Below are positions 15,725 through 64,000 of a stretch of 64,000 bases of DNA, piece by piece. The notes beneath the pieces were generated by a model that was not told the origin of the DNA, searched no databases, and was given only the letters and a program-made list of their open reading frames with translations. Made by a program: the position numbers and the translations under genes. The DNA lies in NCBI RefSeq assembly GCF_023343835.1, contig NC_064437.1:27875001-27939000 (forward strand), in the 5' to 3' direction. The DNA comes from Lagopus muta (taxonomy: Eukaryota; Chordata; Aves; Galliformes; Phasianidae). Each line of letters opens with the position of its first letter. Positions within the stretch are counted from its first letter, which is position 1.

Positions 15725-16835
15725 AATCTAATTTTTCAAGAAAGTTCTTTGTTTTCCTTAAAATGCTGCTTTACAACGTTGTCCAATTCTCACTAATATC
15801 TGTATGTGATTTAAACCTAGGTATGCCTATGTAGCATTCAAAGTGATTGTTGGCTTGCAATTAAAAAATATTCAAAGGATATGTTATATGTTTTTATTTG
15901 AAAATGTCCAATATATCTGATTATACACTGTCATCTGAAAAACACCATTTACATATTCCAGAAGAAATACCATCCCAAATGTGCATATTTTGAAGCTTTT
16001 AAGTTTTATGTACATGATTCAATCAAGCTTCAACTTTTCATATGCATGCAACCTAACTCTGTACCAACGTCAGATGTTCTATGCACCTACAGATGTATGC
16101 AGCTGCCTACAAACATTTCAGTTTTAGTGCTATGTTTAACTGGTATTTTTGCTAGCATGCTTATTATTCCATTCCTGTAAATTTGTTCATGATTTTAAAA
16201 TATTGTATAATATTCAGCAATTAAATTCTTTAGTGCATAAAATCACCTACTTTTTTTTTTTTGGTAGACAGAATTTTCAACTAATTATTATCTACTGTTT
16301 ACCAAATAATGTAATGTATGCAAAATTTCTTAAAATAGTACTTGGACATTTTTGTGTATTTTTAACACAGAAAATGTGTCAGTGTACTTTATTCATTACT
16401 TCATTAACAGAAGTAGAAGAAAGAAATCTGTTGGCTCTTGATAAGGTGCATCAGGTAGCCCTTGCACGTTATCCCAATTAATTTCTTAGATGATTCCAAT
16501 TTCTAATTGGATAGAATATTAATGTTGAGACAGGAAGCAAAGGAAAACATTTCTGACAGATAGAACAATAAGCAGAAGAAAAAAAATGGTACTAACTGAA
16601 CAAAACTTATACTAGAAACTGAAAGTTTCTAATTTTTGAAGTAGTGAAGTTTTGTAATTTCTTCTCAAAAATTTAACTTACTAAGTCTGTTCATGGAATT
16701 GGATAATTTGATTACATTCATTTTGATAATGAGCTGATGATATTGGTGTAAATGAATAGTAATAATATGTAGTTAACAAAGCATGAAATTTGTATACATT
16801 GTGATTAATATAAGCATAGATTTATAGTTGTATCT
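15725..16835. other. AT-rich spacer, no gene seen
   Basis: No recognisable feature. The 110-codon open frame at 16,149-16,481 crosses AT-rich sequence and a T run. It has no domain or splice context supporting a gene. Confidence 0.5.
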
Positions 16836-16837
16836 AC

Positions 16838-17268
16838 ATATATGAAGACAGGCTGAGGGAGCTGGGCTTGTTCAGCCTGGAGAAGAGAAGGCTGTGGGGT
16901 GACCTCATTGCAGCCTTTCAGTACCTCAAGGGAGCCTACAAACAGGAGGGGAATCAACTCTTTGAAAGGGTTGATAACAGCAGGACAAGGGGAAATGGTT
17001 TGAAGTTGAGGGAGGGAAGATTTAGGTTGGATGTCAGGGGGAAGTTCTTGATTATGAGTGGTGAGGTGCTGGAACAGCTGCCCAGAGAGGCTGTGGATGC
17101 CCTGTCCCTAGAGGTGTTCAAGACCAGGTTGGATGGGGCCCTGGGCAGCCTGATCTAGTATTAAACGTGGAGGTTGGTGGCCCTGCATGCAGCAGAGGGG
17201 GGTTGGAGGTTGATGATCCTTGAGGTCACTTCCAATCCAAGCCATTCTGTGATTATGTGATTCTGTGA
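16838..17268 (+). repeat. CR1 LINE 3' portion, sense orientation
   Basis: A well-preserved sense-strand CR1 end. It runs from the CTGGGCTTGTTCAGCCTGGA block through AGGGAAGATTTAGGTTGGAT and the GCCCAGAGAGGCTGTGGATG block. It ends in TTCCAATCCAAGCCATTCTG with degenerate 8-bp terminal repeats (GTGATTATGTGATTCTGTGA). A 96-codon open frame here is the C-terminal and UTR part of CR1 ORF2, not a host gene. Confidence 0.92.
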
Positions 17269-21284: not shown

Positions 21285-22130
21285 TGCTATCCACCAGGCC
21301 ATCCACGTCCACAGAGCTCCTTTCCAGCAGATCAGCCCCTAACCTGACCTGGTATATGTGGTTACTCCTCCCCATGTGTAGGACTCTACACTTGCCCTTG
21401 TTGGATCTCATCAGGTTTCTCCCTGCCCAGCTCTCCAGCCTCTCCAGGTCTTGCTGAATGGCAGAACAGCATTCTGGCATCTCAGCCATTCCTCCCAGCT
21501 TCATATAATCTGCAAACTGAGAGAGCACCCTATCCTTTCATCCAGGCTGTAGATGCTGAACAACACTGGATCCACTACCAACCCCTGGGGAACATCGCTA
21601 GTTACAGGCCTCCAACTAGGCTCCGTGCTGCTGATCACAACCCTCTGAGCTCTACCAGTCAGCCAGTTCTCAATCCACCTCTCTGTCCATTCATCTACCC
21701 CATACTTCCTAAGCTTACCTACAAGGACGTTATGCGAGACAGTGTCAAAAGTCTTGCTGAAGTCAAAGCAGACTACACCCACTGGTCTCCCCTCATCTAC
21801 TCAGCCAGTTGTGACATCACAGAAGGCAATCATATTGGTCAAGCATGATATCCTCTTGGTGAATCCATGTTGACTACTCCTGATAACCTTTTCTTGCACT
21901 TCCTTGAAGGTAACATCCCAGGAATGGAAATGAGACTGACTGGAGTGTAGTTTCCCAGTGCCCCCTTCTTGCCTTTTTTGAAGACTGGAGTGACATTGTC
22001 TACACTTCAGTCCTCTGGCAGCCCTCCCATTCTCCAAGACCTGTCAAAGATGATAGAGAGAAGTCTGACAGTTGTTTCTGCCAGCTCCCTCAGCGCTTAT
22101 GGGTGTATTCCATCAGGGCCCATGGCTTTT
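21285..22130 (-). repeat. CR1 LINE reverse-transcriptase fragment, inverted 5' segment
   Basis: Reading the minus strand gives CR1 ORF2 reverse-transcriptase sequence. It includes a DFSKTFDTVSHN block, NWLTGRAQRVVISSTEPSW and a PQG motif. In another frame comes FADYMKLGG, where active CR1 elements carry FADD, so the catalytic aspartate pair is lost. The coding sequence is split across at least three frames (ORF pieces at 21,280-21,528, 21,501-21,782 and 21,801-22,037). The element is dead. Its ORF2 3' side points left, and it abuts a sense-oriented continuation of ORF2 beginning at about 22,140. The pair therefore looks like one insertion with an inverted 5' part. Confidence 0.88.
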
Positions 22131-48394: not shown

Positions 48395-48831
48395 AGGATC
48401 TTAGTCTCCAACAGAGAGGACTGAGGAAAACACTGCTCTTCCTTGTGTTTGTATGGAACTTCCTGTGTTCCAGTTTCCAGATTCCAGGCCCACTGCTCCG
48501 TGTTCTTTCATGGCATACTACTGAAAAGAACGAAGAGCACCCCATCCACTTAACTCCCACACTGTAAATACTTAAAAACAGGGATGAGATTACTTCTCAG
48601 GCTTCTCCAGGCTGAAGTGCCCCAGGTCTCTCAGCCTTATACAGGAAATGCTCCAGGCCTCTTCTCATCTTTGTGGTCCTCTTCTGGACTCTCCCTAAAA
48701 TATCCCTGTCTTTAGATCTGGATCCACCTTCTTGCCCTTTTTGAAGACCACAGTAACACAGCCTATCCTCCAGTCATTCTCCAAGATGATTTTTGACTGA
48801 TTTCTAACTCTTAGGAATTCACCATCCTGAT
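48395..48831 (-). repeat. Diverged relative of the macrosatellite's right end (CR1-derived)
   Basis: This block aligns by eye, with substitutions and gaps, to 53,860-54,305, the last part of the array unit. Both are antisense CR1, and both make the same odd jump from 3' UTR (ATCCCTGTCTTT) straight into RT-region sequence (GGATCCACCTTCTTGCCCTT). Both finish with TTCTAACTCTTAGGAATTCA. Sharing one internal deletion point argues for common descent of this particular copy or of a deleted subfamily. From 48,832 rightwards, identity to the next unit becomes nearly complete. Confidence 0.7.
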
Positions 48832-49008
48832 CTTGGACGAAACGATGCTTTAATGTCAACCAGCACTTGTGAGTACCCTTTCTTTCCAATGCTATGTCTG
48901 CTAATATGAAATGGGAAACTGACCTCTGGAGCTGAACTTTCCTGGCAAAATGTTTGTGAACGTTTGATTCTCTTTGTGGATTATTAGCAGATCTAAATCT
49001 GCAAAAGA

Positions 49009-49635
49009 ATGAGGTCTGCTACAAAAGTAAAGTTTCCATTTTTATTATGTTGTCCTAGAACATCAGAGGCAGATGCTGGTGATGTGGACACAGAGGTTGA
49101 ATCTTCTCACCACTATTTTGCTGTATTTGTCACACAACAGATGGCTGCAGAGGAGCAGTCTGACAAAATGGCAACTGGCGTGACACCGCAAATGAAGCAA
49201 AGGTGTGTCACTGAAATCCTCGACGAGGACAAAATGGCACCCACTGAAATTCATCAACATTTGCTGAGTGTAGACAGAGACCAAACAGCGGATGTGAGCA
49301 CAGTGAGGTGCTGGGTGGTGCGTTTCAGCAATGACACCATCACAGCAGCTGTGAAACAGTGGTCACCTCCGCTGGCACAGATTTTTACAAGTGCAGCATG
49401 CAGGCTCTTGTTCATCACTGGTGAAAATGCACAGCCTCCAGGGTTTTGTAACATTACCCCTGAACAACTGCAGAATCACAAAGAACAAAACATCTGGAAA
49501 AGGTATGCAATCACTTTGGCAATCCTAGAGAGACACAATTCACTGCAATATGCAGGGGCCTGGCCCATGGATAACAACGTGATTCAGCAGCCTGGAGCGC
49601 AAGAGAAAATCTCTGGATGTGACAATAAACCGTGA
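49009..49635 (+). mobile_element. Mariner-like transposase remnant with 208-codon ORF, unit 1
   Basis: The ORF starts at an ATG and is open for 208 codons. Residues about 63-107 (MKQRCVTEILDEDKMAP, EIHQHLLSV, DVSTVRCWVVRFS) match the N-terminal helix-turn-helix of mariner/SETMAR-type transposases. After this the frame leaves the transposase and reads PPLAQIFTSAACRLLFITGEN. I remember that tail from an internally deleted mariner family in chicken. The catalytic DD(D/E) domain is absent, so it cannot transpose itself. An AATAAA lies at 49,624-49,629, inside the last codons. The ORF stops at the edge of the CpG island, which raises the possibility that the remnant contributes a terminal exon or insulating sequence. 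Expression as protein is unproven. Confidence 0.65.
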
Positions 49636-50027
49636 CAGGCCCCGCAATTGCTCCAGCCCCTGCGGACGGCCCTGCGGTTACCGCAAGCCCTGCGACGGGG
49701 CTCAGCTGTGTCCCGCGTACCGCTCCCTAGCGGCTCTCCACGGCCTGCAGCCTCAGTCCTTCAGGCTACGCCCAGCTACTCCAGCGCGGGCCGCTCCACA
49801 GAGCGCGGCACATCTGAACTCTAAGCGGGGTCCAGAGAGCCGCAGCACGAGGACGAGACCGAGGTGCGGACGGGCCGCTCGGGCCGGGTGCACTCGGCCG
49901 GGCTGGGCGACGAGACGAGAGAGGGGGCCGCCCCGCGCCGGACGCGGCCGCTTCCAGCCGCTTGGAGGGCGAGCCCGTCAGCGACGGCCACGACGCCGCC
50001 GGCAAAGGTCCGGGGGCGGCCGCGGAG

Positions 50028-50504
50028 ATGGCCGAGGGAAGCGGGAAGACGGGAACCCGGCGCGGGAGCTTTGTGACGCGGGCCGGCGTCGCGCCCGAAG
50101 GCCATTGTGACGCGGGGCCGCCTCGAGGGGCCGGAGTCCCCCGCAGAGAGTGCCGCTCACTCTCGGGAGAGAGGCTCCGCGAGGAGGTTCCCCCGAGTGC
50201 CTGCGACCGAGCATCTGCGCGAGGACGCGACGATGAGCGAGGAGCGGGACAAGAAGGACGAGCGCCGGCCCGACGCGGGGCCGCCACGCGTGCCGGACCG
50301 CCGCGGGGTGCGGGCCGGGGAGGGAGGCGCTCGGGCTCGGCCGGCGGCGACTTCGCCGCGTCCGTCCCGCGCCTCCTTCTCCCCACGGACGCCGCCGCCG
50401 GGCGGCCGGAGCCCGGCCTCGTCCCTCCGCGGCGTCCGTCTGCCCCAGCTGCCCGGCCCGGAGAGCTCGCGGGCCTCCGGGCGCCGCGACGCACAGGTAG
50501 GTAG
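50028..50504 (+). CDS. Alternative overlapping frame with strong-context ATG, unit 1
   Basis: ATG at 50,028 (GAGATGG, purine at -3 and G at +4) opens a frame different from the long ORF. Unspliced it runs 158 codons to a stop just inside the intron. If the 186-nt intron is removed, the frame continues into exon 2 and ends at a TAG near 50,825, about 203 residues. It starts MAEGSGKTGTRRGSFV. Because it precedes the long ORF's ATG, it would be the first start met on any transcript beginning upstream of 50,028. It is either a genuine second product, an inhibitory upstream ORF, or absent from the mRNA. GC-rich DNA often has spurious open frames. The same frame exists in units 2 and 3. Confidence 0.25.
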   Translation: MAEGSGKTGTRRGSFVTRAGVAPEGHCDAGPPRGAGVPRRECRSLSGERLREEVPPSACDRASARGRDDERGAGQEGRAPARRGAATRAGPPRGAGRGGRRSGSAGGDFAASVPRLLLPTDAAAGRPEPGLVPPRRPSAPAARPGELAGLRAPRRTGR

Positions 50505-52146
50505 CCCGAGGGAGGCGGGGCCGGACGTCTTCCCGCGCCGCGTGGGGACCGCCCTGTGCCGGCGCGGCTGCGGGGAGCGGGGCGGCGGCCGCCCGCGGGC
50601 TGAGCGCTGTCCTCGGTGCCGAGTGCGGCGTGAGCGGGAAGGACCGCGCTCACTCGGCCTTTCTCCTCGGCTTCTCTTGCAGGCGGGCGGGCGGGAGTTT
50701 TCCCCGTCGGTGACCTGCGGCGGTGCCAGCGGGCGAAGCGGGCAGCCTCAATCATCCTTGCTGCCTCGCTTAAGGCGGGCAGGGCTGCCGGCAGCTGCAC
50801 CCCGGCGTGCAGCAGCATCTTCTAGAGTCTCTAAGCTGCCTGTTCTGCAAGCAGCAGCCTCTTCCACACCTTCAAGAGGCAGAGCGCATGCTGTGGGCAT
50901 TAGAGGCAGCAGAATCCCAGTACTTGCCCCGAGACCTCACGTCCAGGACGGGACAGCAAGGGCGGAGAGCCGGGGTCCAGCTCGGGAAGTCTGCTCAACC
51001 ATTCTAACGCCTCAGCACGACAGACCCAGACAAAACTACGTGGTGTCCCTGAGCTGTGCTGCCGCTGCAAGCCCAAGAGTTGAAGGGCAGCTGGCAGTAC
51101 CAGGGCGCCATGCACCGACCAGCAACCTGAGAACACCAGGAAAAACGGCCCAGGTGCTCTCCACCAAGGCTGGGAAGATCCACGCAGCTTGGAGAGTTGC
51201 TCAGGAGGGCACCAGAGACACTCGTGCTGCAGCTACACCATCTTTTAGAGCAGCTCAGAAGGGCCCAGAAGGGCAGGCAGGCGGCAAAGAGCGAGACAAG
51301 GAGCCTCTGTCTGCATTAGTGCCTGAAGATGCAGGCAACTTAGTTTCTCCCAAGGCTGCACACTCTGCAGAGGAGGCCAATGACGCGGTGCTCTTCCCAA
51401 GAGTGTGCAAACAGGGAAAAAGAGACGTAAATGGTACCGCCATGCCTGAAGTCTCCAGACAAGCTCTGGGAGCAGCACTGAGACCGCAAGATCCCAGAGA
51501 GGTCAACTGGGAGGCTTATGGATGCTCTCCAGTACACCCAGCAATCTGGAGAATTCGGGATCAGGCGAGGAAGGAGCAGATGTTAAGCTGGAAAGTCTCT
51601 TGGCCAGACACGAGCATGCTCAGGCTGCTAAGAGCCCAAGCAGCACATGCCAGTGCCAGTGCTACTGACACTGCTCAGGGAATGCTAGACACCTGCACCA
51701 CGACATCGAGGGTGGAAGGCTTCTTTCCTGCCTCTTGTGATTCTCAAAGCCAGGACATTAGAATTCAGCATGCACAGGAAGAGACCACTGATGATGCTGC
51801 CAGTGATGCCAGCACGGATCACAGCATGCTGGATGCCAGGGACAATGCAGTGACAGCTGAGAGCATGCCCACACCCTCCTGTTTTTGCCCTGATACCATG
51901 GAGGGTGTGGAAGAATGGGAGGACAACAGTGAGGAAGCAGCTGCTGAGGCAGCTGGTGTGCCACCAAGCATTTCTGGTGCCTCATCTGTTGAGATGAAGA
52001 CAACAGCAGCTCGCCACCGGATGCCAGCTGTCATCAGGACTGTGCTCCGGGCTCTGCGCAGGATTTGCACCTGCAGCTGCGTCAGGGGACAACGAGAGGA
52101 GAGGCACGAGGCTGCAAACACCACGCAGCTCCCCGGAGACATCTGA
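50233..52146 (+). CDS. Unknown Arg/Pro-rich, acidic-tailed protein, macrosatellite unit 1
   Basis: The first in-frame ATG is at 50,233, with A at -3. An in-frame TGA at 50,074 closes the frame upstream, and the frame is open to a TGA at 52,144-52,146: 637 codons. A likely intron at 50,497-50,682 (CAG|GTAGGT donor; TCTTCTCTTGCAG acceptor) is exactly 186 nt and has no stop. Splicing gives 575 residues, retention 637. Exon 1 (88 codons) is Arg/Pro/Gly-rich and probably disordered, opening MSEERDKKDERRPDAG. Exon 2 (487 codons) has normal composition and includes VNWEAYGCSPVHPAIWRIRD, a Ser/Thr/Asp-rich stretch, an acidic patch (EGVEEWEDNSEEAAAEAA) and a basic/Cys end (RTVLRALRRICTCSC). There is no signal peptide or known domain. 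I do not recognise the family. The other units encode the same protein. Confidence 0.6.
   Translation: MSEERDKKDERRPDAGPPRVPDRRGVRAGEGGARARPAATSPRPSRASFSPRTPPPGGRSPASSLRGVRLPQLPGPESSRASGRRDAQVGSPREAGPDVFPRRVGTALCRRGCGERGGGRPRAERCPRCRVRREREGPRSLGLSPRLLLQAGGREFSPSVTCGGASGRSGQPQSSLLPRLRRAGLPAAAPRRAAASSRVSKLPVLQAAASSTPSRGRAHAVGIRGSRIPVLAPRPHVQDGTARAESRGPAREVCSTILTPQHDRPRQNYVVSLSCAAAASPRVEGQLAVPGRHAPTSNLRTPGKTAQVLSTKAGKIHAAWRVAQEGTRDTRAAATPSFRAAQKGPEGQAGGKERDKEPLSALVPEDAGNLVSPKAAHSAEEANDAVLFPRVCKQGKRDVNGTAMPEVSRQALGAALRPQDPREVNWEAYGCSPVHPAIWRIRDQARKEQMLSWKVSWPDTSMLRLLRAQAAHASASATDTAQGMLDTCTTTSRVEGFFPASCDSQSQDIRIQHAQEETTDDAASDASTDHSMLDARDNAVTAESMPTPSCFCPDTMEGVEEWEDNSEEAAAEAAGVPPSISGASSVEMKTTAARHRMPAVIRTVLRALRRICTCSCVRGQREERHEAANTTQLPGDI
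50497..50682 (+). other. Frame-neutral intron (exitron-like), unit 1
   Basis: 186 bases between CAG|GTAGGT and TTCTCTTGCAG|GCG. The length is 62 codons and the reading frame is open throughout, so retained and removed forms are both translatable. GC content is as high as in exon 1. Equivalents are 55,971-56,156 and 61,447-61,632. Splice use is predicted, not shown. Confidence 0.6.
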
Positions 52147-52254
52147 TTTCAACCTGTCAATGTAGAATTCTGGTTCCATCCTGTCAACATAGGATTCTGG
52201 TTCCATCTTGTCAGTGCAGAATTCTGATTCCATCCTGTCAACACAGAATTCTGA
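52147..52254. repeat. 27-bp minisatellite, four copies, unit 1
   Basis: Four imperfect 27-bp units (TTCCATCCTGTCAACATAGG type) start one base after the stop codon of the long ORF. Because 27 is a multiple of three, repetitive frames stay open on both strands, which explains the spurious repetitive peptides there. Confidence 0.92.
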
Positions 52255-52325
52255 TTAAATATTATCATTATACCATCCTGGCTGAGTGCTGTCTGATCTG
52301 TGTGCTCACGCATGTTTGGTCTCTG
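52254..52325 (+). terminator. Candidate poly(A) site of the long-ORF gene, unit 1
   Basis: ATTAAA at 52,254-52,259, about 108 bases after the stop, is followed by GT-rich sequence (GAGTGCTGTCTGATCTGTGT) at about 52,283-52,310. That is the usual layout of a variant poly(A) signal plus downstream element. I saw no AATAAA between the stop and the unit end. A second ATTAAA lies near 52,741. Equivalents occur in units 2 and 3. Confidence 0.4.
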
Positions 52326-52329
52326 AGTG

Positions 52330-52980
52330 CAGCTACTGGTGTCAGAGCACAGGGTGGAGGATGCCTGTGTCAGTGGAACCATCAAGGGCAAAGAATGTGG
52401 GTGTGCAAGGCTAGCGAAGGGGAAGCCAGCTAAGCCTGGTGTGTGTGTGAGATCCCCTGTGAAGAAAGGGGTGAGTGAACCAGCAACTGGAGGTGGGCTG
52501 TGGCCTTGAAGATTCCTGCGTCCATGGTTAGCAACTGGGGAGATTGATGAGGGGACCGTTCTTCCTGGCACTCGGTGCTTGTATGAAGCGATTCTCACTT
52601 GCGGTTACGGGGGTGAGTGGTTCTGTATGGTGCCACCCTGAGTGTGACAACACCTTTTTGTTTCTTGGTAAAGAAATTTGGCACATTTGGGAAAATACAA
52701 TTATTAGAGAGCAGGGAAACTCTACTGGTTGTTGAGAGGGATTAAAATCAGAATACCACCAAAACCATGGTCAGAGGGAAGTGGAGATGTCTCAGAATTC
52801 AGTAGTAATGTTGTAGTGTTTTGCGAGTTATCTTTTGTATGTGTTTAATTTGTTTTCTCGGTAGCAGCAGTGGTCTGTGCAGACAGAAAGCGATCCCAGT
52901 TTTCTTAGGAAAGTCAAACAAGGTCATTCTATTCAACTGTGCATTTGCTGAACCAGCACTTGGAAGAAATCCTCACACAG
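52330..52980. other. Unassigned part of the unit between minisatellite and CR1
   Basis: About 0.65 kb of moderate GC content, not recognisable as CR1, LTR or mariner. It contains two GTGAGTG donor-like sites (about 52,470 and 52,612) and short open frames only. The second site lies where unit 1 differs from units 2 and 3 by one G. Equivalent stretches are 57,807-58,457 and 63,280-63,930. Confidence 0.4.
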
Positions 52981-52984
52981 CACA

Positions 52985-54275
52985 TTATCACAGAATCACA
53001 GAATTGTACAGGTTAAAGGATCTCATCATCTAGTCCAACTCCCCCAGTAAAGGACATTCTCTACAGTGTCGTAGAATCATAGAATGACTTGGATTGTCCT
53101 ATCACTTCCTGCATAAGAAGTTGTTCCTCCTCCTCCAGCTTGTAAGTTCCTTTCAAGTATTGGAGATGGCAGTGAGGTCTCCCTGGAGCCTTCTCATCTC
53201 CAAGCTAAACAATCCCAACTCCCTCAACCTTGCTTAATAGGAGAGGGGTTCCAGCCCTCAGCCCTCTGATAATCTTTTTGGTCCTCCTCTGGACCTGCTC
53301 CAACAGCCCTTCCCAAGATTAATTCATCTGTACTTTGGCTTTCCTGATGCCATCCAGGCACATCCTGACAGCATCCCTATATTCCTACCAGGTTACCCAT
53401 TCCCTCCTCCTGGACTTCTGTTTTTCCTGCTTTTCTCTCAGCCACCCCATCAGGTCTTTGCTCAGCCATACTGGTTTCCTGCCAGCCCTGCCTGATTTCT
53501 TATTCTGGGGGTTGGAGAGCTCTCGTGCTCTCAGAAACATGTTATTAAAAGTGCTTCCAACTCTTTCCATTGCTGTGTGCCTAAGGTCAGTTTTTCAGGA
53601 GATCTTATCCATTTCTTAAATCGCCCCAAAGACAGGGCTGCCTGTCTTTCCGTATCATTGCATGATACCAGGCATCAGTCTCTCCCTCTGACTGCTGAGT
53701 ACAGCAGATTATTTTCCTGGCACCTTCCTCTCGCAGCCTGCTCAGCTGCTACAGAAACAGTAGGTTGCACAGGAAAGCATCCAGACAGGTCCTGAATATC
53801 TCCAGAGAAGGAGATATTCTCTGGGCAGCCTGTTCCAGTAGTACTCTGTCACCCTCACAGTAAAGAAGTTCTTCCTCACGTTTGTATGGAACTTTCTGCA
53901 TTCCAGTTTGTGCCCACTGCCTCTTGTTCTATCTCTGCACACCACCAAAAAGAACCTGGCCCCATCCACTTGTCTCCCCCACTGCAGGTATTTATAAACA
54001 GGAATGAGATCACCTCTGAGTCTTCTCCAGGCTGAAAAGTCCAGAGTCTCCCAGCCTAAGGGTGATAAGGGCGATGCTCGAGGCCCCTACTCATCTTTGT
54101 GACCCTCTGCTGCTGGACTCTCTCTTAAAGATCCCTGTCTTTGGATCCACCTTCTTGCCCTTTTTGAAGACCAGAGTAACACTGCCTATCCTCAGGTCTT
54201 CAGACTCCTCTGCCATTCTCCAAGACCTTTCAAAGACAATAGAGGAGGCAGGTTTCCTGCTATTTTTGCCTGACT
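52985..54275 (-). repeat. Three antisense CR1 pieces, unit 1
   Basis: Piece A (52,988-53,065) is a 3' end only. Piece B (53,068-53,755) starts GTCGTAGAATCATAGAATGA. It runs from 3' UTR into the linker region of ORF2; the minus-strand frame at 53,385-53,570 has RAGRKPVWLSKDLMG. Piece C (53,758-54,275) is 3' UTR without the terminal motif, followed by an abrupt jump into RT-region sequence near 54,145. All are inactive. The next unit starts soon after. Confidence 0.85.
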
Positions 54276-54481
54276 TCTAACTCTTAGGAATTCACAAACC
54301 CCGAGCTTGGACGAAACGATGCTTTAATGTCAACCAGCACTTGTGAGTACCCTTTCTTTCCAATGCTATGTCTGCTAATATGAAATGGGAAACTGACCTC
54401 TGGAGCTGAACTTTCCTGGCAAAATGTTTGTGAACGTTTGATTCTCTTTGTGGATTATTAGCAGATCTAATCTGCAAAAGA

Positions 54482-55108
54482 ATGAGGTCTGCTACAAAAG
54501 TAAAGTTTCCATTTTTATTATGTTGTCCTAGAACATCAGAGGCAGATGCTGGTGATGTGGACACAGAGGTTTGAACCTTCTCACCACTATTCTGCTGTAT
54601 TTGTCACACAACAGATGGCTGCAGAGGAGCAGTCTGACAAAATGGCAACTGGCGTGACACCGCAAATGAAGCAAAGGTGTGTCACTGAAATCCTCGACGA
54701 GGACAAAATGGCACCCACTGAAATTCATCAACATTTGCTGAGTGTAGACAGAGACCAAACAGCGGATGTGAGCACAGTGAGGTGCTGGGTGGTGCGTTTC
54801 AGCAATGACACCATCACAGCAGCTGTGAAACAGTGGTCACCTCCGCTGGCACAGATTTTTACAAGTGCAGCATGCAGGCTCTTGTTCATCACTGGTGAAA
54901 ATGCACAGCCTCCAGGGTTTTGTAACATACCCCTGAACAACTGCAGAATCACAAAGAACAAAACATCTGGAAAAGGTATGCAATCACTTTGGCAATCCTA
55001 GAGAGACACAATTCACTGCAATATGCAGGGGCCTGGCCCATGGATAACAACGTGATTCAGCAGCCTGGAGCGCAAGAGAAAATCTCTGGATGTGACAATA
55101 AACCGTGA
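54482..55108 (+). pseudogene. Mariner-like remnant, unit 2, frameshifted
   Basis: The same remnant as in unit 1. An extra T near 54,570 and a missing T near 54,927 break the 208-codon frame. A 151-codon frame from an ATG at 54,546 still covers the helix-turn-helix block. Both breaks sit in or next to short T runs. They may be sequencing-type errors or true decay. Confidence 0.65.
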
Positions 55109-55112
55109 CAGG

Positions 55113-56255
55113 CCCCGCAATTGCTCCAGCCCCTGCGGACGGCCCTGCGGTTACCGCAAGCCCTGCGACGGGGCTCAGCTGTGTCCCGCGTACCGCTCCC
55201 TAGCGGCTCTCCACGGCCTGCAGCCTCAGTCCTTCAGGCTACGCCCAGCTACTCCAGCGCGGGCCGCTCCACAGAGCGCGGCACATCTGAACTCTAAGCG
55301 GGGTCCAGAGAGCCGCAGCACGAGGACGAGACCGAGGTGCGGACGGGCCCGCTCGGGCCGGGTGCACTCGGCCGGGCTGGGCGACGAGACGAGAGAGGGG
55401 GCCGCCCCGCGCCGGACGCGGCCGCTTCCAGCCGCTTGGAGGGCGAGCCCGTCAGCGACGGCCACGACGCCGCCGGCAAAGGTCCGGGGGCGGCCGCGGA
55501 GATGGCCGAGGGAAGCGGGAAGACGGGAACCCGGCGCGGGAGCTTTGTGACGCGGGCCGGCGTCGCGCCCGAAGGCCATTGTGACGCGGGGCCGCCTCGA
55601 GGGGCCGGAGTCCCCCGCAGAGAGTGCCGCTCACTCTCGGGAGAGAGGCTCCGCGAGGAGGTTCCCCCGAGTGCCTGCGACCGAGCATCTGCGCGAGGAC
55701 GCGACGATGAGCGAGGAGCGGGACAAGAAGGACGAGCGCCGGCCCGACGCGGGGCCGCCACGCGTGCCGGACCGCCGCGGGGTGCGGGCCGGGGAGGGAG
55801 GCGCTCGGGCTCGGCCGGCGGCGACTTCGCCGCGTCCGTCCCGCGCCTCCTTCTCCCCACGGACGCCGCCGCCGGGCGGCCGGAGCCCGGCCTCGTCCCT
55901 CCGCGGCGTCCGTCTGCCCCAGCTGCCCGGCCCGGAGAGCTCGCGGGCCTCCGGGCGCCGCGACGCACAGGTAGGTAGCCCGAGGGAGGCGGGGCCGGAC
56001 GTCTTCCCGCGCCGCGTGGGGACCGCCCTGTGCCGGCGCGGCTGCGGGGAGCGGGGCGGCGGCCGCCCGCGGGCTGAGCGCTGTCCTCGGTGCCGAGTGC
56101 GGCGTGAGCGGGAAGGACCGCGCTCACTCGGCCTTTCTCCTCGGCTTCTCTTGCAGGCGGGCGGGCGGGAGTTTTCCCCGTCGGTGACCTGCGGCGGTGC
56201 CAGCGGGCGAAGCGGGCAGCCTCAATCATCTTCCTTGCTGCCTCGCTTAAGGCGG
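55113..56255 (+). promoter_or_regulatory. CpG-rich island, unit 2
   Basis: Same island as in unit 1, with one extra C near 55,348 and three extra bases near 56,231. The paired TTGTGACGCGGG repeats are preserved. Confidence 0.8.
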
Positions 56256-57623
56256 GCAGGGCTGCCGGCAGCTGCACCCCGGCGTGCAGCAGCATCTTCT
56301 AGAGTCTCTAAGCTGCCTGTTCTGCAAGCAGCAGCCTCTTCCACACCTTCAAGAGGCAGAGCGCATGCTGTGGGCATTAGAGGCAGCAGAATCCCAGTAC
56401 TTGCCCCGAGACCTCACGTCCAGGACGGGACAGCAAGGGCGGAGAGCCGGGGTCCAGCTCGGGAAGTCTGCTCAACCATTCTAACGCCTCAGCACGACAG
56501 ACCCAGACAAAACTACGTGGTGTCCCTGAGCTGTGCTGCCGCTGCAAGCCCAAGAGTTGAAGGGCAGCTGGCAGTACCAGGGCGCCATGCACCGACCAGC
56601 AACCTGAGAACACCAGGAAAAACGGCCCAGGTGCTCTCCACCAAGGCTGGGAAGATCCACGCAGCTTGGAGAGTTGCTCAGGAGGGCACCAGAGACACTC
56701 GTGCTGCAGCTACACCATCTTTTAGAGCAGCTCAGAAGGGCCCAGAAGGGCAGGCAGGCGGCAAAGAGCGAGACAAGGAGCCTCTGTCTGCATTAGTGCC
56801 TGAAGATGCAGGCAACTTAGTTTCTCCCAAGGCTGCACACTCTGCAGAGGAGGCCAATGACGCGGTGCTCTTCCCAAGAGTGTGCAAACAGGGAAAAAGA
56901 GACGTAAATGGTACCGCCATGCCTGAAGTCTCCAGACAAGCTCTGGGAGCAGCACTGAGACCGCAAGATCCCAGAGAGGTCAACTGGGAGGCTTATGGAT
57001 GCTCTCCAGTACACCCAGCAATCTGGAGAATTCGGGATCAGGCGAGGAAGGAGCAGATGTTAAGCTGGAAAGTCTCTTGGCCAGACACGAGCATGCTCAG
57101 GCTGCTAAGAGCCCAAGCAGCACATGCCAGTGCCAGTGCTACTGACACTGCTCAGGGAATGCTAGACACCTGCACCACGACATCGAGGGTGGAAGGCTTC
57201 TTTCCTGCCTCTTGTGATTCTCAAAGCCAGGACATTAGAATTCAGCATGCACAGGAAGAGACCACTGATGATGCTGCCAGTGATGCCAGCACGGATCACA
57301 GCATGCTGGATGCCAGGGACAATGCAGTGACAGCTGAGAGCATGCCCACACCCTCCTGTTTTTGCCCTGATACCATGGAGGGTGTGGAAGAATGGGAGGA
57401 CAACAGTGAGGAAGCAGCTGCTGAGGCAGCTGGTGTGCCACCAAGCATTTCTGGTGCCTCATCTGTTGAGATGAAGACAACAGCAGCTCGCCACCGGATG
57501 CCAGCTGTCATCAGGACTGTGCTCCGGGCTCTGCGCAGGATTTGCACCTGCAGCTGCGTCAGGGGACAACGAGAGGAGAGGCACGAGGCTGCAAACACCA
57601 CGCAGCTCCCCGGAGACATCTGA
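55707..57623 (+). CDS. Unknown Arg/Pro-rich, acidic-tailed protein, macrosatellite unit 2
   Basis: Same gene as in unit 1, with intron 55,971-56,156 and stop at 57,621-57,623. The only coding difference I see is three extra bases near 56,231, which add one Ser (SQPQSS becomes SQPQSSS-like) in exon 2. Four 1-base indels private to this unit lie outside the reading frame, and the one inside it is a multiple of three. That is what a constrained coding sequence would show, but the count is too small to be proof. Predicted length is 576 residues spliced and 638 unspliced. Confidence 0.6.
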   Translation: MSEERDKKDERRPDAGPPRVPDRRGVRAGEGGARARPAATSPRPSRASFSPRTPPPGGRSPASSLRGVRLPQLPGPESSRASGRRDAQVGSPREAGPDVFPRRVGTALCRRGCGERGGGRPRAERCPRCRVRREREGPRSLGLSPRLLLQAGGREFSPSVTCGGASGRSGQPQSSSLLPRLRRAGLPAAAPRRAAASSRVSKLPVLQAAASSTPSRGRAHAVGIRGSRIPVLAPRPHVQDGTARAESRGPAREVCSTILTPQHDRPRQNYVVSLSCAAAASPRVEGQLAVPGRHAPTSNLRTPGKTAQVLSTKAGKIHAAWRVAQEGTRDTRAAATPSFRAAQKGPEGQAGGKERDKEPLSALVPEDAGNLVSPKAAHSAEEANDAVLFPRVCKQGKRDVNGTAMPEVSRQALGAALRPQDPREVNWEAYGCSPVHPAIWRIRDQARKEQMLSWKVSWPDTSMLRLLRAQAAHASASATDTAQGMLDTCTTTSRVEGFFPASCDSQSQDIRIQHAQEETTDDAASDASTDHSMLDARDNAVTAESMPTPSCFCPDTMEGVEEWEDNSEEAAAEAAGVPPSISGASSVEMKTTAARHRMPAVIRTVLRALRRICTCSCVRGQREERHEAANTTQLPGDI

Positions 57624-57731
57624 TTTCAACCTGTCAATGTAGAATTCTGGTTCCATCCTGTCAACATAGGATTCTGGTTCCATCTTGTCAGTGCAGAATT
57701 CTGATTCCATCCTGTCAACACAGAATTCTGA
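57624..57731. repeat. 27-bp minisatellite, four copies, unit 2
   Basis: Same four-copy array directly after the stop codon. No copy-number difference from unit 1. Confidence 0.92.
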
Positions 57732-58461
57732 TTAAATATTATCATTATACCATCCTGGCTGAGTGCTGTCTGATCTGTGTGCTCACGCATGTTTGGTCTC
57801 TGAGTGCAGCTACTGGTGTCAGAGCACAGGGTGGAGGATGCCTGTGTCAGTGGAACCATCAAGGGCAAAGAATGTGGGTGTGCAAGGCTAGCGAAGGGGA
57901 AGCCAGCTAAGCCTGGTGTGTGTGTGAGATCCCCTGTGAAGAAAGGGGTGAGTGAACCAGCAACTGGAGGTGGGCTGTGGCCTTGAAGATTCCTGCGTCC
58001 ATGGTTAGCAACTGGGGAGATTGATGAGGGGACCGTTCTTCCTGGCACTCGGGTGCTTGTATGAAGCGATTCTCACTTGCGGTTACGGGGTGAGTGGTTC
58101 TGTATGGTGCCACCCTGAGTGTGACAACACCTTTTTGTTTCTTGGTAAAGAAATTTGGCACATTTGGGAAAATACAATTATTAGAGAGCAGGGAAACTCT
58201 ACTGGTTGTTGAGAGGGATTAAAATCAGAATACCACCAAAACCATGGTCAGAGGGAAGTGGAGATGTCTCAGAATTCAGTAGTAATGTTGTAGTGTTTTG
58301 CGAGTTATCTTTTGTATGTGTTTAATTTGTTTTCTCGGTAGCAGCAGTGGTCTGTGCAGACAGAAAGCGATCCCAGTTTTCTTAGGAAAGTCAAACAAGG
58401 TCATTCTATTCAACTGTGCATTTGCTGAACCAGCACTTGGAAGAAATCCTCACACAGCACA

Positions 58462-59751
58462 TTATCACAGAATCACAGAATTGTACAGGTTAAAGGATCT
58501 CATCATCTAGTCCAACTCCCCCAGTAAAGGACATTCTCTACAGTGTCGTAGAATCATAGAATGACTTGGATTGTCCTATCACTTCCTGCATAAGAAGTTG
58601 TTCCTCCTCCTCCAGCTTGTAAGTTCCTTTCAAGTATTGGAGATGGCAGTGAGGTCTCCCTGGAGCCTTCTCATCTCCAAGCTAAACAATCCCAACTCCC
58701 TCAACCTTGCTTAATAGGAGAGGGGTTCCAGCCCTCAGCCCTCTGATAATCTTTTTGGTCCTCCTCTGGACCTGCTCCAACAGCCCTTCCCAAGATTAAT
58801 TCATCTGTACTTTGGCTTTCCTGATGCCATCCAGGCACATCCTGACAGCATCCCTATATTCCTACCAGGTTACCCATTCCCTCCTCCTGGACTTCTGTTT
58901 TTCCTGCTTTTCTCTCAGCCACCCCATCAGGTCTTTGCTCAGCCATACTGGTTTCCTGCCAGCCCTGCCTGATTTCTTATTCTGGGGGTTGGAGAGCTCT
59001 CGTGCTCTCAGAAACATGTTATTAAAAGTGCTTCCAACTCTTTCCATTGCTGTGTGCCTAAGGTCAGTTTTTCAGGAGATCTTATCCATTTCTTAAATCG
59101 CCCAAAGACAGGGCTGCCTGTCTTTCCGTATCATTGCATGATACCAGGCATCAGTCTCTCCCTCTGACTGCTGAGTACAGCAGATTATTTTCCTGGCACC
59201 TTCCTCTCGCAGCCTGCTCAGCTGCTACAGAAACAGTAGGTTGCACAGGAAAGCATCCAGACAGGTCCTGAATATCTCCAGAGAAGGAGATATTCTCTGG
59301 GCAGCCTGTTCCAGTAGTACTCTGTCACCCTCACAGTAAAGAAGTTCTTCCTCACGTTTGTATGGAACTTTCTGCATTCCAGTTTGTGCCCACTGCCTCT
59401 TGTTCTATCTCTGCACACCACCAAAAAGAACCTGGCCCCATCCACTTGTCTCCCCCACTGCAGGTATTTATAAACAGGAATGAGATCACCTCTGAGTCTT
59501 CTCCAGGCTGAAAAGTCCAGAGTCTCCCAGCCTAAGGGTGATAAGGGCGATGCTCGAGGCCCCTACTCATCTTTGTGACCCTCTGCTGCTGGACTCTCTC
59601 TTAAAGATCCCTGTCTTTGGATCCACCTTCTTGCCCTTTTTGAAGACCAGAGTAACACTGCCTATCCTCAGGTCTTCAGACTCCTCTGCCATTCTCCAAG
59701 ACCTTTCAAAGACAATAGAGGAGGCAGGTTTCCTGCTATTTTTGCCTGACT
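58462..59751 (-). repeat. Three antisense CR1 pieces, unit 2
   Basis: Same three pieces as in unit 1, one C shorter near 59,100. The identical internal breakpoints show they were part of the unit before it was amplified. Confidence 0.85.
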
Positions 59752-59958
59752 TCTAACTCTTAGGAATTCACAAACCCCGAGCTTGGACGAAACGATGCTT
59801 TAATGTCAACCAGCACTTGTGAGTACCCTTTCTTTCCAATGCTATGTCTGCTAATATGAAATGGGAAACTGACCTCTGGAGCTGAACTTTCCTGGCAAAA
59901 TGTTTGTGAACGTTTGATTCTCTTTGTGGATTATTAGCAGATCTAAATCTGCAAAAGA

Positions 59959-60585
59959 ATGAGGTCTGCTACAAAAGTAAAGTTTCCATTTTTATTATGT
60001 TGTCCTAGAACATCAGAGGCAGATGCTGGTGATGTGGACACAGAGGTTGAACCTTCTCACCACTATTCTGCTGTATTTGTCACACAACAGATGGCTGCAG
60101 AGGAGCAGTCTGACAAAATGGCAACTGGCGTGACACCGCAAATGAAGCAAAGGTGTGTCACTGAAATCCTCGACGAGGACAAAATGGCACCCACTGAAAT
60201 TCATCAACATTTGCTGAGTGTAGACAGAGACCAAACAGCGGATGTGAGCACAGTGAGGTGCTGGGTGGTGCGTTTCAGCAATGACACCATCACAGCAGCT
60301 GTGAAACAGTGGTCACCTCCGCTGGCACAGATTTTTACAAGTGCAGCATGCAGGCTCTTGTTCATCACTGGTGAAAATGCACAGCCTCCAGGGTTTTGTA
60401 ACATTACCCCTGAACAACTGCAGAATCACAAAGAACAAAACATCTGGAAAAGGTATGCAATCACTTTGGCAATCCTAGAGAGACACAATTCACTGCAATA
60501 TGCAGGGGCCTGGCCCATGGATAACAACGTGATTCAGCAGCCTGGAGCGCAAGAGAAAATCTCTGGATGTGACAATAAACCGTGA
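59959..60585 (+). mobile_element. Mariner-like transposase remnant with 208-codon ORF, unit 3
   Basis: Intact 208-codon frame as in unit 1. Two residues differ near positions 32-37: TEVEPSHHYSAV here, TEVESSHHYFAV in unit 1. Unit 2 shares the unit 3 bases at both sites. Truncated transposase without a catalytic domain. Confidence 0.65.
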
Positions 60586-60589
60586 CAGG

Positions 60590-61730
60590 CCCCGCAATTG
60601 CTCCAGCCCCTGCGGACGGCCCTGCGGTTACCGCAAGCCCTGCGACGGGGCTCAGCTGTGTCCCGCGTACCGCTCCCTAGCGGCTCTCCACGGCCTGCAG
60701 CCTCAGTCCTTCAGGCTACGCCCAGCTACTCCAGCGCGGGCCGCTCCACAGAGCGCGGCACATCTGAACTCTAAGCGGGGTCCAGAGAGCCGCAGCACGA
60801 GGACGAGACCGAGGTGCGGACGGGCCGCTCGGGCCGGGTGCACTCGGCCGGGCTGGGCGACGAGACGAGAGAGGGGGCCGCCCCGCGCCGGACGCGGCCG
60901 CTTCCAGCCGCTTGGAGGGCGAGCCCGTCAGCGACGGCCACGACGCCGCCGGCAAAGGTCCGGGGGCGGCCGCGGAGATGGCCGAGGGAAGCGGGAAGAC
61001 GGGAACCCGGCGCGGGAGCTTTGTGACGCGGGCCGGCGTCGCGCCCGAAGGCCATTGTGACGCGGGGCCGCCTCGAGGGGCCGGAGTCCCCCGCAGAGAG
61101 TGCCGCTCACTCTCGGGAGAGAGGCTCCGCGAGGAGGTTCCCCCGAGTGCCTGCGACCGAGCATCTGCGCGAGGACGCGACGATGAGCGAGGAGCGGGAC
61201 AAGAAGGACGAGCGCCGGCCCGACGCGGGGCCGCCACGCGTGCCGGACCGCCGCGGGGTGCGGGCCGGGGAGGGAGGCGCTCGGGCTCGGCCGGCGGCGA
61301 CTTCGCCGCGTCCGTCCCGCGCCTCCTTCTCCCCACGGACGCCGCCGCCGGGCGGCCGGAGCCCGGCCTCGTCCCTCCGCGGCGTCCGTCTGCCCCAGCT
61401 GCCCGGCCCGGAGAGCTCGCGGGCCTCCGGGCGCCGCGACGCACAGGTAGGTAGCCCGAGGGAGGCGGGGCCGGACGTCTTCCCGCGCCGCGTGGGGACC
61501 GCCCTGTGCCGGCGCGGCTGCGGGGAGCGGGGCGGCGGCCGCCCGCGGGCTGAGCGCTGTCCTCGGTGCCGAGTGCGGCGTGAGCGGGAAGGACCGCGCT
61601 CACTCGGCCTTTCTCCTCGGCTTCTCTTGCAGGCGGGCGGGCGGGAGTTTTCCCCGTCGGTGACCTGCGGCGGTGCCAGCGGGCGAAGCGGGCAGCCTCA
61701 ATCATCCTTGCTGCCTCGCTTAAGGCGGGC
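60590..61730 (+). promoter_or_regulatory. CpG-rich island, unit 3
   Basis: Same island as in unit 1. It matches unit 1 at both length-variable sites where unit 2 differs. Confidence 0.8.
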
Positions 61731-63096
61731 AGGGCTGCCGGCAGCTGCACCCCGGCGTGCAGCAGCATCTTCTAGAGTCTCTAAGCTGCCTGTTCTGCAA
61801 GCAGCAGCCTCTTCCACACCTTCAAGAGGCAGAGCGCATGCTGTGGGCATTAGAGGCAGCAGAATCCCAGTACTTGCCCCGAGACCTCACGTCCAGGACG
61901 GGACAGCAAGGGCGGAGAGCCGGGGTCCAGCTCGGGAAGTCTGCTCAACCATTCTAACGCCTCAGCACGACAGACCCAGACAAAACTACGTGGTGTCCCT
62001 GAGCTGTGCTGCCGCTGCAAGCCCAAGAGTTGAAGGGCAGCTGGCAGTACCAGGGCGCCATGCACCGACCAGCAACCTGAGAACACCAGGAAAAACGGCC
62101 CAGGTGCTCTCCACCAAGGCTGGGAAGATCCACGCAGCTTGGAGAGTTGCTCAGGAGGGCACCAGAGACACTCGTGCTGCAGCTACACCATCTTTTAGAG
62201 CAGCTCAGAAGGGCCCAGAAGGGCAGGCAGGCGGCAAAGAGCGAGACAAGGAGCCTCTGTCTGCATTAGTGCCTGAAGATGCAGGCAACTTAGTTTCTCC
62301 CAAGGCTGCACACTCTGCAGAGGAGGCCAATGACGCGGTGCTCTTCCCAAGAGTGTGCAAACAGGGAAAAAGAGACGTAAATGGTACCGCCATGCCTGAA
62401 GTCTCCAGACAAGCTCTGGGAGCAGCACTGAGACCGCAAGATCCCAGAGAGGTCAACTGGGAGGCTTATGGATGCTCTCCAGTACACCCAGCAATCTGGA
62501 GAATTCGGGATCAGGCGAGGAAGGAGCAGATGTTAAGCTGGAAAGTCTCTTGGCCAGACACGAGCATGCTCAGGCTGCTAAGAGCCCAAGCAGCACATGC
62601 CAGTGCCAGTGCTACTGACACTGCTCAGGGAATGCTAGACACCTGCACCACGACATCGAGGGTGGAAGGCTTCTTTCCTGCCTCTTGTGATTCTCAAAGC
62701 CAGGACATTAGAATTCAGCATGCACAGGAAGAGACCACTGATGATGCTGCCAGTGATGCCAGCACGGATCACAGCATGCTGGATGCCAGGGACAATGCAG
62801 TGACAGCTGAGAGCATGCCCACACCCTCCTGTTTTTGCCCTGATACCATGGAGGGTGTGGAAGAATGGGAGGACAACAGTGAGGAAGCAGCTGCTGAGGC
62901 AGCTGGTGTGCCACCAAGCATTTCTGGTGCCTCATCTGTTGAGATGAAGACAACAGCAGCTCGCCACCGGATGCCAGCTGTCATCAGGACTGTGCTCCGG
63001 GCTCTGCGCAGGATTTGCACCTGCAGCTGCGTCAGGGGACAACGAGAGGAGAGGCACGAGGCTGCAAACACCACGCAGCTCCCCGGAGACATCTGA
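61183..63096 (+). CDS. Unknown Arg/Pro-rich, acidic-tailed protein, macrosatellite unit 3
   Basis: Same gene again, ATG at 61,183, intron 61,447-61,632, stop at 63,094-63,096. The predicted protein is identical to that of unit 1. The coding part is complete although the unit itself is cut by the window end. Confidence 0.6.
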   Translation: MSEERDKKDERRPDAGPPRVPDRRGVRAGEGGARARPAATSPRPSRASFSPRTPPPGGRSPASSLRGVRLPQLPGPESSRASGRRDAQVGSPREAGPDVFPRRVGTALCRRGCGERGGGRPRAERCPRCRVRREREGPRSLGLSPRLLLQAGGREFSPSVTCGGASGRSGQPQSSLLPRLRRAGLPAAAPRRAAASSRVSKLPVLQAAASSTPSRGRAHAVGIRGSRIPVLAPRPHVQDGTARAESRGPAREVCSTILTPQHDRPRQNYVVSLSCAAAASPRVEGQLAVPGRHAPTSNLRTPGKTAQVLSTKAGKIHAAWRVAQEGTRDTRAAATPSFRAAQKGPEGQAGGKERDKEPLSALVPEDAGNLVSPKAAHSAEEANDAVLFPRVCKQGKRDVNGTAMPEVSRQALGAALRPQDPREVNWEAYGCSPVHPAIWRIRDQARKEQMLSWKVSWPDTSMLRLLRAQAAHASASATDTAQGMLDTCTTTSRVEGFFPASCDSQSQDIRIQHAQEETTDDAASDASTDHSMLDARDNAVTAESMPTPSCFCPDTMEGVEEWEDNSEEAAAEAAGVPPSISGASSVEMKTTAARHRMPAVIRTVLRALRRICTCSCVRGQREERHEAANTTQLPGDI

Positions 63097-63204
63097 TTTC
63101 AACCTGTCAATGTAGAATTCTGGTTCCATCCTGTCAACATAGGATTCTGGTTCCATCTTGTCAGTGCAGAATTCTGATTCCATCCTGTCAACACAGAATT
63201 CTGA
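63097..63204. repeat. 27-bp minisatellite, four copies, unit 3
   Basis: Same four-copy array as in the other two units. Confidence 0.92.
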
Positions 63205-63934
63205 TTAAATATTATCATTATACCATCCTGGCTGAGTGCTGTCTGATCTGTGTGCTCACGCATGTTTGGTCTCTGAGTGCAGCTACTGGTGTCAGAGCAC
63301 AGGGTGGAGGATGCCTGTGTCAGTGGAACCATCAAGGGCAAAGAATGTGGGTGTGCAAGGCTAGCGAAGGGGAAGCCAGCTAAGCCTGGTGTGTGTGTGA
63401 GATCCCCTGTGAAGAAAGGGGTGAGTGAACCAGCAACTGGAGGTGGGCTGTGGCCTTGAAGATTCCTGCGTCCATGGTTAGCAACTGGGGAGATTGATGA
63501 GGGGACCGTTCTTCCTGGCACTCGGGTGCTTGTATGAAGCGATTCTCACTTGCGGTTACGGGGTGAGTGGTTCTGTATGGTGCCACCCTGAGTGTGACAA
63601 CACCTTTTTGTTTCTTGGTAAAGAAATTTGGCACATTTGGGAAAATACAATTATTAGAGAGCAGGGAAACTCTACTGGTTGTTGAGAGGGATTAAAATCA
63701 GAATACCACCAAAACCATGGTCAGAGGGAAGTGGAGATGTCTCAGAATTCAGTAGTAATGTTGTAGTGTTTTGCGAGTTATCTTTTGTATGTGTTTAATT
63801 TGTTTTCTCGGTAGCAGCAGTGGTCTGTGCAGACAGAAAGCGATCCCAGTTTTCTTAGGAAAGTCAAACAAGGTCATTCTATTCAACTGTGCATTTGCTG
63901 AACCAGCACTTGGAAGAAATCCTCACACAGCACA

Positions 63935-64000
63935 TTATCACAGAATCACAGAATTGTACAGGTTAAAGGATCTCATCATCTAGTCCAACTCCCCCAGTAA
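63935..64000 (-). repeat. CR1 piece A, unit 3, cut by window end
   Basis: Only the inverted 3' end (ATCACAGAATCACAGAATTG) and about 45 bases of body lie inside the window. Confidence 0.85.

Follow-up and report, generated by a model that had tools for sequence, protein, structure and literature searches.

The right-hand end of a 64,000-nucleotide stretch of the Lagopus muta genome (contig NC_064437.1, here C8, 27875001–27939000; hereafter the window) was found to contain the beginning of a tandem array of a probable protein-coding gene. The genome searched comprised 1,026,658,476 bp in 165 contigs. Comparison of the window with itself revealed 99.73% identity between 48789–58527 and 54262–64000 and 99.74% identity between 48789–53050 and 59738–64000, giving 2.8 head-to-tail units (48789–64000) with a period of 5,473–5,476 bp. 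The first-pass annotation of this DNA had described a head-to-tail repeat with a CpG island and a frame of 637–638 codons in every unit, and these self-matches bear it out. Its period of 5,474–5,476 bp was close to that measured in the window, and the repeat it placed from 48832 was real, with its true start 43 bp earlier at 48789. The "about ten" differences it noticed between units were counted as 12 alignment columns, plus seven within the opening 44 bp of unit 1; where unit 3 is cut, 32 further consecutive columns were an alignment artefact and were excluded from this count. The features of the array within the window are as follows.

48789–54261, + strand: repeat unit 1, 5,473 bp, with 44 diverged bp at its start, the left edge of the array
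49529–50888, no strand: CpG island of unit 1, spanning the presumed promoter, exon 1 and the intron
50233–50496, + strand: predicted coding part of exon 1, 88 codons (MSEERDKKDE...RRDAQ)
50497–50682, + strand: predicted intron, 186 bp, from CAG/GTAGGT (at 50494) to TTCTCTTGCAG/G (at 50682)
50683–52146, + strand: predicted exon 2, 487 codons and a stop, with one HPAIWRI module motif and a C-terminal amphipathic helix and Cys cluster
52142–52256, + strand: 27-bp tandem repeat, 4.3 copies, running from the stop codon; also at 57619–57733 and 63092–63206
54262–59737, + strand: repeat unit 2, 5,476 bp
55707–57623, + strand: gene of unit 2, a 638-codon frame with one TCT insertion and the same splice sites (genome position 27930707)
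59738–64000, + strand: repeat unit 3, cut by the end of the window; 5,473 bp in the genome
61183–63096, + strand: gene of unit 3, a 637-codon frame with the same splice sites (genome position 27936183)

In units 1, 2 and 3 the frame measured 689, 690 and 689 codons from stop to stop and 637, 638 and 637 codons from a conserved ATG. The CpG island was defined in 200-bp windows by a GC content >0.55 and a CpG observed/expected ratio >0.65; units 2 and 3 had matching CpG peaks in a 1-kb table, and against the island of unit 1 the ratio per kb over positions 1–48000 of the window was 0.03–0.47.

The whole array consisted of 16 units over ~114 kb (C8 27923789 to ~28037900). The first four unit steps were 5,473, 5,476, 5,473 and 5,473 bp; steps 5–9 were of 8,169–8,179 bp and were followed by one of 3,979 bp with a 200-N gap, after which there were three of 8,169–8,171 bp, one of 7,701 bp, one of 8,169 bp and the last unit. 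Units of ~5.5 kb made up 4/16 of the array and those of ~8.17 kb 9/16, so the period of the first-pass annotation, correct for the window, does not describe the array as a whole, and these two main unit lengths rule out a homogeneous 5.5-kb macrosatellite. Its further proposal, a recently amplified or actively homogenised gene array in a bird, was supported. The units showed 99.2–99.8% identity to unit 1 (98.6% for the unit cut by the gap). Over 15 of the units (unit 10 was left out of this count) 13 of 1,461 positions in exon 2 and one of 264 in exon 1 were variable. Some variants were common to non-adjacent units (7 and 9; 2, 6 and 8), which indicates exchange or block duplication.

Units 5–9 and 11–16 contained an extra piece that carries a second copy of the gene (B) lacking exon 1. 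The first copy (A) had an intact frame in 13 of the 16 units, with 90, 91 and 405 codons left in the broken ones. Eight of the 11 B frames were of 632 codons from stop to stop and had no C-terminus, one was of 476 codons, one was broken at 131 and the last, at 886 codons, kept its C-terminus. Unit 14 fell short by 468 bp, and the B frame within it by 156 codons. The long unit type looks derived because, in copies of the gene elsewhere on C8 (28.48 and 28.72 Mb, ~27.7216 and ~27.7256 Mb), the transition from gene to 3′ flank is that of the short units. Immediately left of the array, 48437–48770 matched a portion of the unit's 3′ end at 77%, suggesting a formerly greater leftward extent of the array or its ancestor.

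A whole-genome DNA search with 2 kb of the gene, from which copy counts are lower bounds, gave C8 and C59 as the only contigs among the matches listed. On C8, dispersed copies were found near 27.718, 27.722 and 27.728 Mb (+ strand) and at 28.484–28.490 Mb and 28.721–28.725 Mb (− strand). The last of these, the 28.72-Mb copy (L023:3071–6880, − strand), was an uninterrupted frame of 1,270 codons with four module motifs at a step of 210–212 amino acids. C59 contained a second tandem array (C59:67880811–67910836), formed by five units of ~6 kb that carry a four-exon paralogue; all four exon frames were open and the splice donor was present in 5/5 units. C59 is perhaps the Z chromosome, and the chicken contig that holds the C59 clade has the length of chromosome Z. 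Matches to deiodinase genes were found on C8 (4.86 Mb) and C9; DIO1 lies on chicken chromosome 8 and DIO2 and DIO3 on chromosome 5, which would make C8 the homologue of chicken 8. In chicken and guineafowl, relatives of the gene were carried on contigs of 29.6 and 30.2 Mb, which correspond to chromosome 8. At 65.9 Mb, C8 was ~2× as long as these two, a hint of fused chromosomes or of joined scaffolds in Lagopus muta.

The first-pass annotation had described one long intact frame per unit, which is probably not a single exon. The predicted intron sits inside the 637-codon frame because its 186 bp have no in-frame stop, and 62 codons of that frame look like intron. The splice-like donor CAG/GTAGGT and acceptor TTCTCTTGCAG/G were matched in sequence in 16/16 array units, and matching sites were present in five further C8 copies, which had been located with the donor pattern. 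Within the array the intron was 186 bp in 15 units and 192 bp in one; the dispersed copies at 28.48 and 28.72 Mb likewise had 186 bp, and those upstream had 145, 144 and 145 bp. Exon 1 of the 27.718-Mb copy was open, as were 878 codons of its exon 2, but the 145-bp intron between them sets these open exons in different frames, so this copy needs splicing. The intron residues were absent from the guineafowl (Numida) model P0001, and the models of the paralogue clade from turkey (P0010) and chicken (P0011) join at ...RRAQ/ADR, pieces that lie on separate exons in the C59 DNA. Set against splicing are the chicken models of the C8 clade (P0004, P0005 and P0006), which keep the intron residues as coding; P0004 and P0006 are also in another frame for part of the GC-rich N-terminal region. 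The first ~30 residues of exon 1 resemble P0004, P0006 and the C59 paralogue. A single-exon gene, as these chicken models would have it, is held to be unlikely because of the splice-like sites in all 16 units and the exons of the 27.718-Mb copy being in different frames. Read from the sequence, the 186-bp intron is probably spliced out to give a product of 88 + 487 = 575 amino acids.

The exon 2 sequences of the 28.72-Mb copy and the full B copy aligned at 83% identity, with 423 substitutions. All 14 gaps were multiples of three, compared with 4/8 in non-coding control alignments; only 13 of the 14 are free, because both sequences are whole frames and the sum of the gaps is a multiple of three by construction. 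No stops were seen where 10.3 were expected, and 0/3,000 matched neutral simulations were stop-free. The ratio of non-synonymous to synonymous change (omega, NG86) for this pair was 0.76. A value of 2.18 was obtained between the two downstream copies, on 4 synonymous changes.

Several observations weigh against a constrained coding sequence. Comparison of A with five other C8 copies and with B gave an omega for exon 2 of 0.50–0.92, and between A and the 28.72-Mb copy the intron treated as codons scored 0.54 and exon 2 0.50. Exon 1 of the same pair differed by four non-synonymous and no synonymous changes, and third positions were not enriched for substitutions. The upstream copies 27722 and 27728 have a 1-bp insertion in exon 2 that leaves only 215 codons open. 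Several gaps that were not multiples of three occurred between A and the 28.72-Mb copy and between A and B; these may be due to misaligned modules, as local alignments show net in-frame gaps. Because the intron scores like exon 2 and the exon 1 changes are four against none, selection on residues is not demonstrated, and the coding case therefore leans on the kept frames. Exon 2 is probably coding, with weak amino-acid constraint (omega ~0.76).

Approximately 8,000 candidates were scored in each protein search (7,981 for the 637-aa query). The 637-aa frame gave six matches (E 1.5e-110 to 9.1e-226) with similarity along exon 2: LOC110402637 and LOC110402925 of Numida, LOC116238636 of Phasianus, LOC107056682 and XP_025008936 of Gallus, and one that was unnamed. 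The C59 paralogue gave 16 matches in turkey, chicken, guineafowl, pheasant, two quails and bamboo partridge, whose names were mostly unrelated or uncharacterized, with one lacking a name. Misnomers in public annotation included proteoglycan 4-like, NAC-alpha domain-containing 1-like, TFIID subunit 4-like, IF-2-like and fibrous sheath CABYR-binding-like. A profile search listed 20 matches, including a 1,276-aa protein of Anas platyrhynchos with four module motifs at a step of 181 amino acids. Among the matches bearing organism names (~8,000 candidates per search), none came from a bird other than a galliform or Anas. A tree built on 21 selected rows over the first 420 residues separated a C8 clade, including the duck, from a C59 clade (support 100/99), the duck row being long and its placement unsure; array copy A grouped with the 28.72-Mb copy (99/99) inside a group of the galliforms minus Numida (96/95). 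P0026, an unnamed ENA cluster of 83 sequences, grouped with a Numida paralogue in the tree.

With E allowed up to 1, Pfam matched neither the 689-aa frame nor two other frames of the unit. The 1270-aa copy had only sub-cut-off matches (E 0.002, 0.0039 and 9.3), none of them a homeobox, and a PDB sequence search of P0007 returned just two matches (E 0.82 and 0.99). Among the papers searched, none mentioned any of ten family identifiers, nor three of the misnomers in combination with chicken or testis. The protein, which the first-pass annotation could assign to no family, was placed among unnamed or misnamed galliform and duck genes with public predictions, while the lack of a named domain family stood. 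The family is, as judged from these sequences, unnamed, fast-changing and already predicted in gamebirds, with a duck relative. Elsewhere in unit 1, a 212-aa frame (48997–49635) seemed to resemble a mariner-like transposase fragment; this identity is not claimed, because Pfam was empty at E up to 1 and PDB gave one match (E 1.1) to an unrelated enzyme. The AT-rich left flank contained frames (16820–17155 and 21504–21800) that look like fragments of a CR1-type long interspersed nuclear element.

The AlphaFold2 model of exon 2, built with 13 sequences, had a mean predicted local distance difference test score (pLDDT) of 43.7, with 415 of the 487 residues below 50. Helices were predicted at residues 287–299, at the module motif, and at the C-terminus (449–479), where block 451–460 had a pLDDT of 86. 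The C-terminal helix was amphipathic in 5/5 sequences, including the duck, with a helical moment of 0.62–0.86 that was reached by 6–69 of 2,000 shuffles; the piece was picked by eye, and P0001 and P0005, which have different ends, lay outside the five tested. It runs into the Cys cluster in the galliform sequences and was common to four of five galliform relatives (P0002, P0003, P0004 and P0006), being looser in the duck and differing at the end of P0001. An LPCCLC-like cluster occurred twice in 4/5 of the C59-clade proteins examined. The module motif was counted once in the array gene and one to four times in its relatives. The protein is accordingly modelled as disordered, and is predicted to contain repeated modules; a membrane-tethered disordered protein with a variable number of modules may be inferred from the model. 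Two points weigh on the other side: a pLDDT of at least 70 was reached in only 15 of 487 residues, and the idea of a tether is based on one predicted helix and one cysteine cluster.

We lean, with modest confidence, towards an array of genes for a fast-evolving, membrane-tethered disordered protein, whose dose the array would raise, by analogy in germ cells. As read from the sequence, each unit can be a separate transcription unit because a CpG island, a start codon, splice-like sites and a stop are all present within it. An intact unit would be a gene from promoter to stop, and removal of the 186-bp intron would yield the 575-aa protein. Unequal exchange and gene conversion would hold the units 99.2–99.8% alike and could remove modules in frame from within a gene. 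The former would also alter the numbers of units and of modules, as perhaps in unit 14 with its B frame 156 codons shorter. The C-terminal amphipathic helix and the cysteines, which are perhaps lipid-modified, would hold the disordered protein at a membrane, and the array would act through raised dose. The germ line may be the main site; by analogy it is the likeliest one, because PMC9974502 describes amplified genes as testis-biased on 7/10 chicken dot chromosomes.

The array could instead be a mostly non-functional amplified satellite, spread by unequal exchange, in which young GC-rich copies stay open and few or no units are translated. This is rather unlikely. In its favour, units 99.2–99.8% like unit 1 (98.6% for the gap-cut one) have had little time for decay, omega of 0.50–0.92 is matched by 0.54 for the intron treated as codons, the CpG island holds several other overlapping long frames on both strands, and frames are broken in 3/16 A copies, 1/11 B copies and the two upstream copies, breaks that also count against a coding array. 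It fits poorly with the older copies, which at 83% identity still have 1,120 and 851 open codons of exon 2, with the C59 exon frames open in 5/5 units and with the related proteins predicted in several galliform genera and the duck. That the array is an assembly artefact, with one or two genes over-expanded, is very improbable; the 200-N gap within it would allow this and makes the exact copy number uncertain, but there are unit-specific variants, variants common to non-adjacent units, two unit lengths and flanks unlike the unit.

A distinctly unlikely alternative is conflict between an autosome and the Z, with the C8 and C59 genes opposed and each array expanding in answer to the other, the prize being transmission or sex-linked expression. 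In its favour, both of the paralogous clades, each on its own contig, are arrayed with similar homogeneity, the family changes fast, and the chicken contig of the C59 clade has the length of chromosome Z. In a bolder form, which we regard as a doubtful speculation, the two arrays would be an autosome–Z pair of co-amplified, fast-evolving, module-counting membrane-tethered gamebird proteins. An unrecognised conflict, over either the transmission of gametes or the dosage of the Z, would have shaped them, in a logic like that of mouse Slx/Sly.

A dose-raising array of genes for a tethered disordered protein, the explanation preferred here, may be compared with several known systems. The D4Z4/DUX4 macrosatellite consists of head-to-tail CpG-rich units with one long frame each. 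The array shares this architecture, with 13/16 frames open, but the likeness drawn in the first-pass annotation is one of analogy only: no homeodomain was detected with Pfam, and the array gene is probably spliced within the unit and has dispersed copies. NBPF/Olduvai-type families have nested repeat modules in a multicopy gene, as does the array gene, which Pfam did not match above the cut-off to any family. The galliform and duck genes are homologous to it in exon 2 and the module motif, whereas the chicken and guineafowl models have a C-terminal stretch that it lacks.

Closer parallels are found in birds. HINT1W on the chicken W is, according to PMC9974502, a 5,648-bp unit in 52 tandem duplicates with locally high GC. 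It resembles the present array in being a gene-bearing tandem unit with locally high GC in a bird, and differs in its gene and chromosome; here there are two main unit lengths and a probably disordered, unnamed protein, and Pfam (E up to 1) found no HINT protein in the main frame or two other frames of the unit. The contig of the array also carries a deiodinase gene that is presumably linked to chicken 8. Testis-expressed amplicons of the chicken dot chromosomes and Z are described in the same paper as multicopy genes in tandem satellite-like arrays, those of the dot chromosomes lying in pericentromeric heterochromatin (PMC9974502); the array is likewise a multicopy gene in tandem, with 16 units, in 13 of which the frame is open. 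The "undescribed system" of the first-pass annotation is a gene array for which birds already offer a precedent in HINT1W, and its family has already been predicted. What is unusual is that the repetition is nested and that a parallel array exists on another contig: modules recur within the gene, the gene within the array and the array on two contigs, which makes three levels. The coding-gene amplicons described in birds gain a probable further member, which bears on the question of whether avian gene arrays of this type serve germ-line dose or genetic conflict or are neutral satellites.

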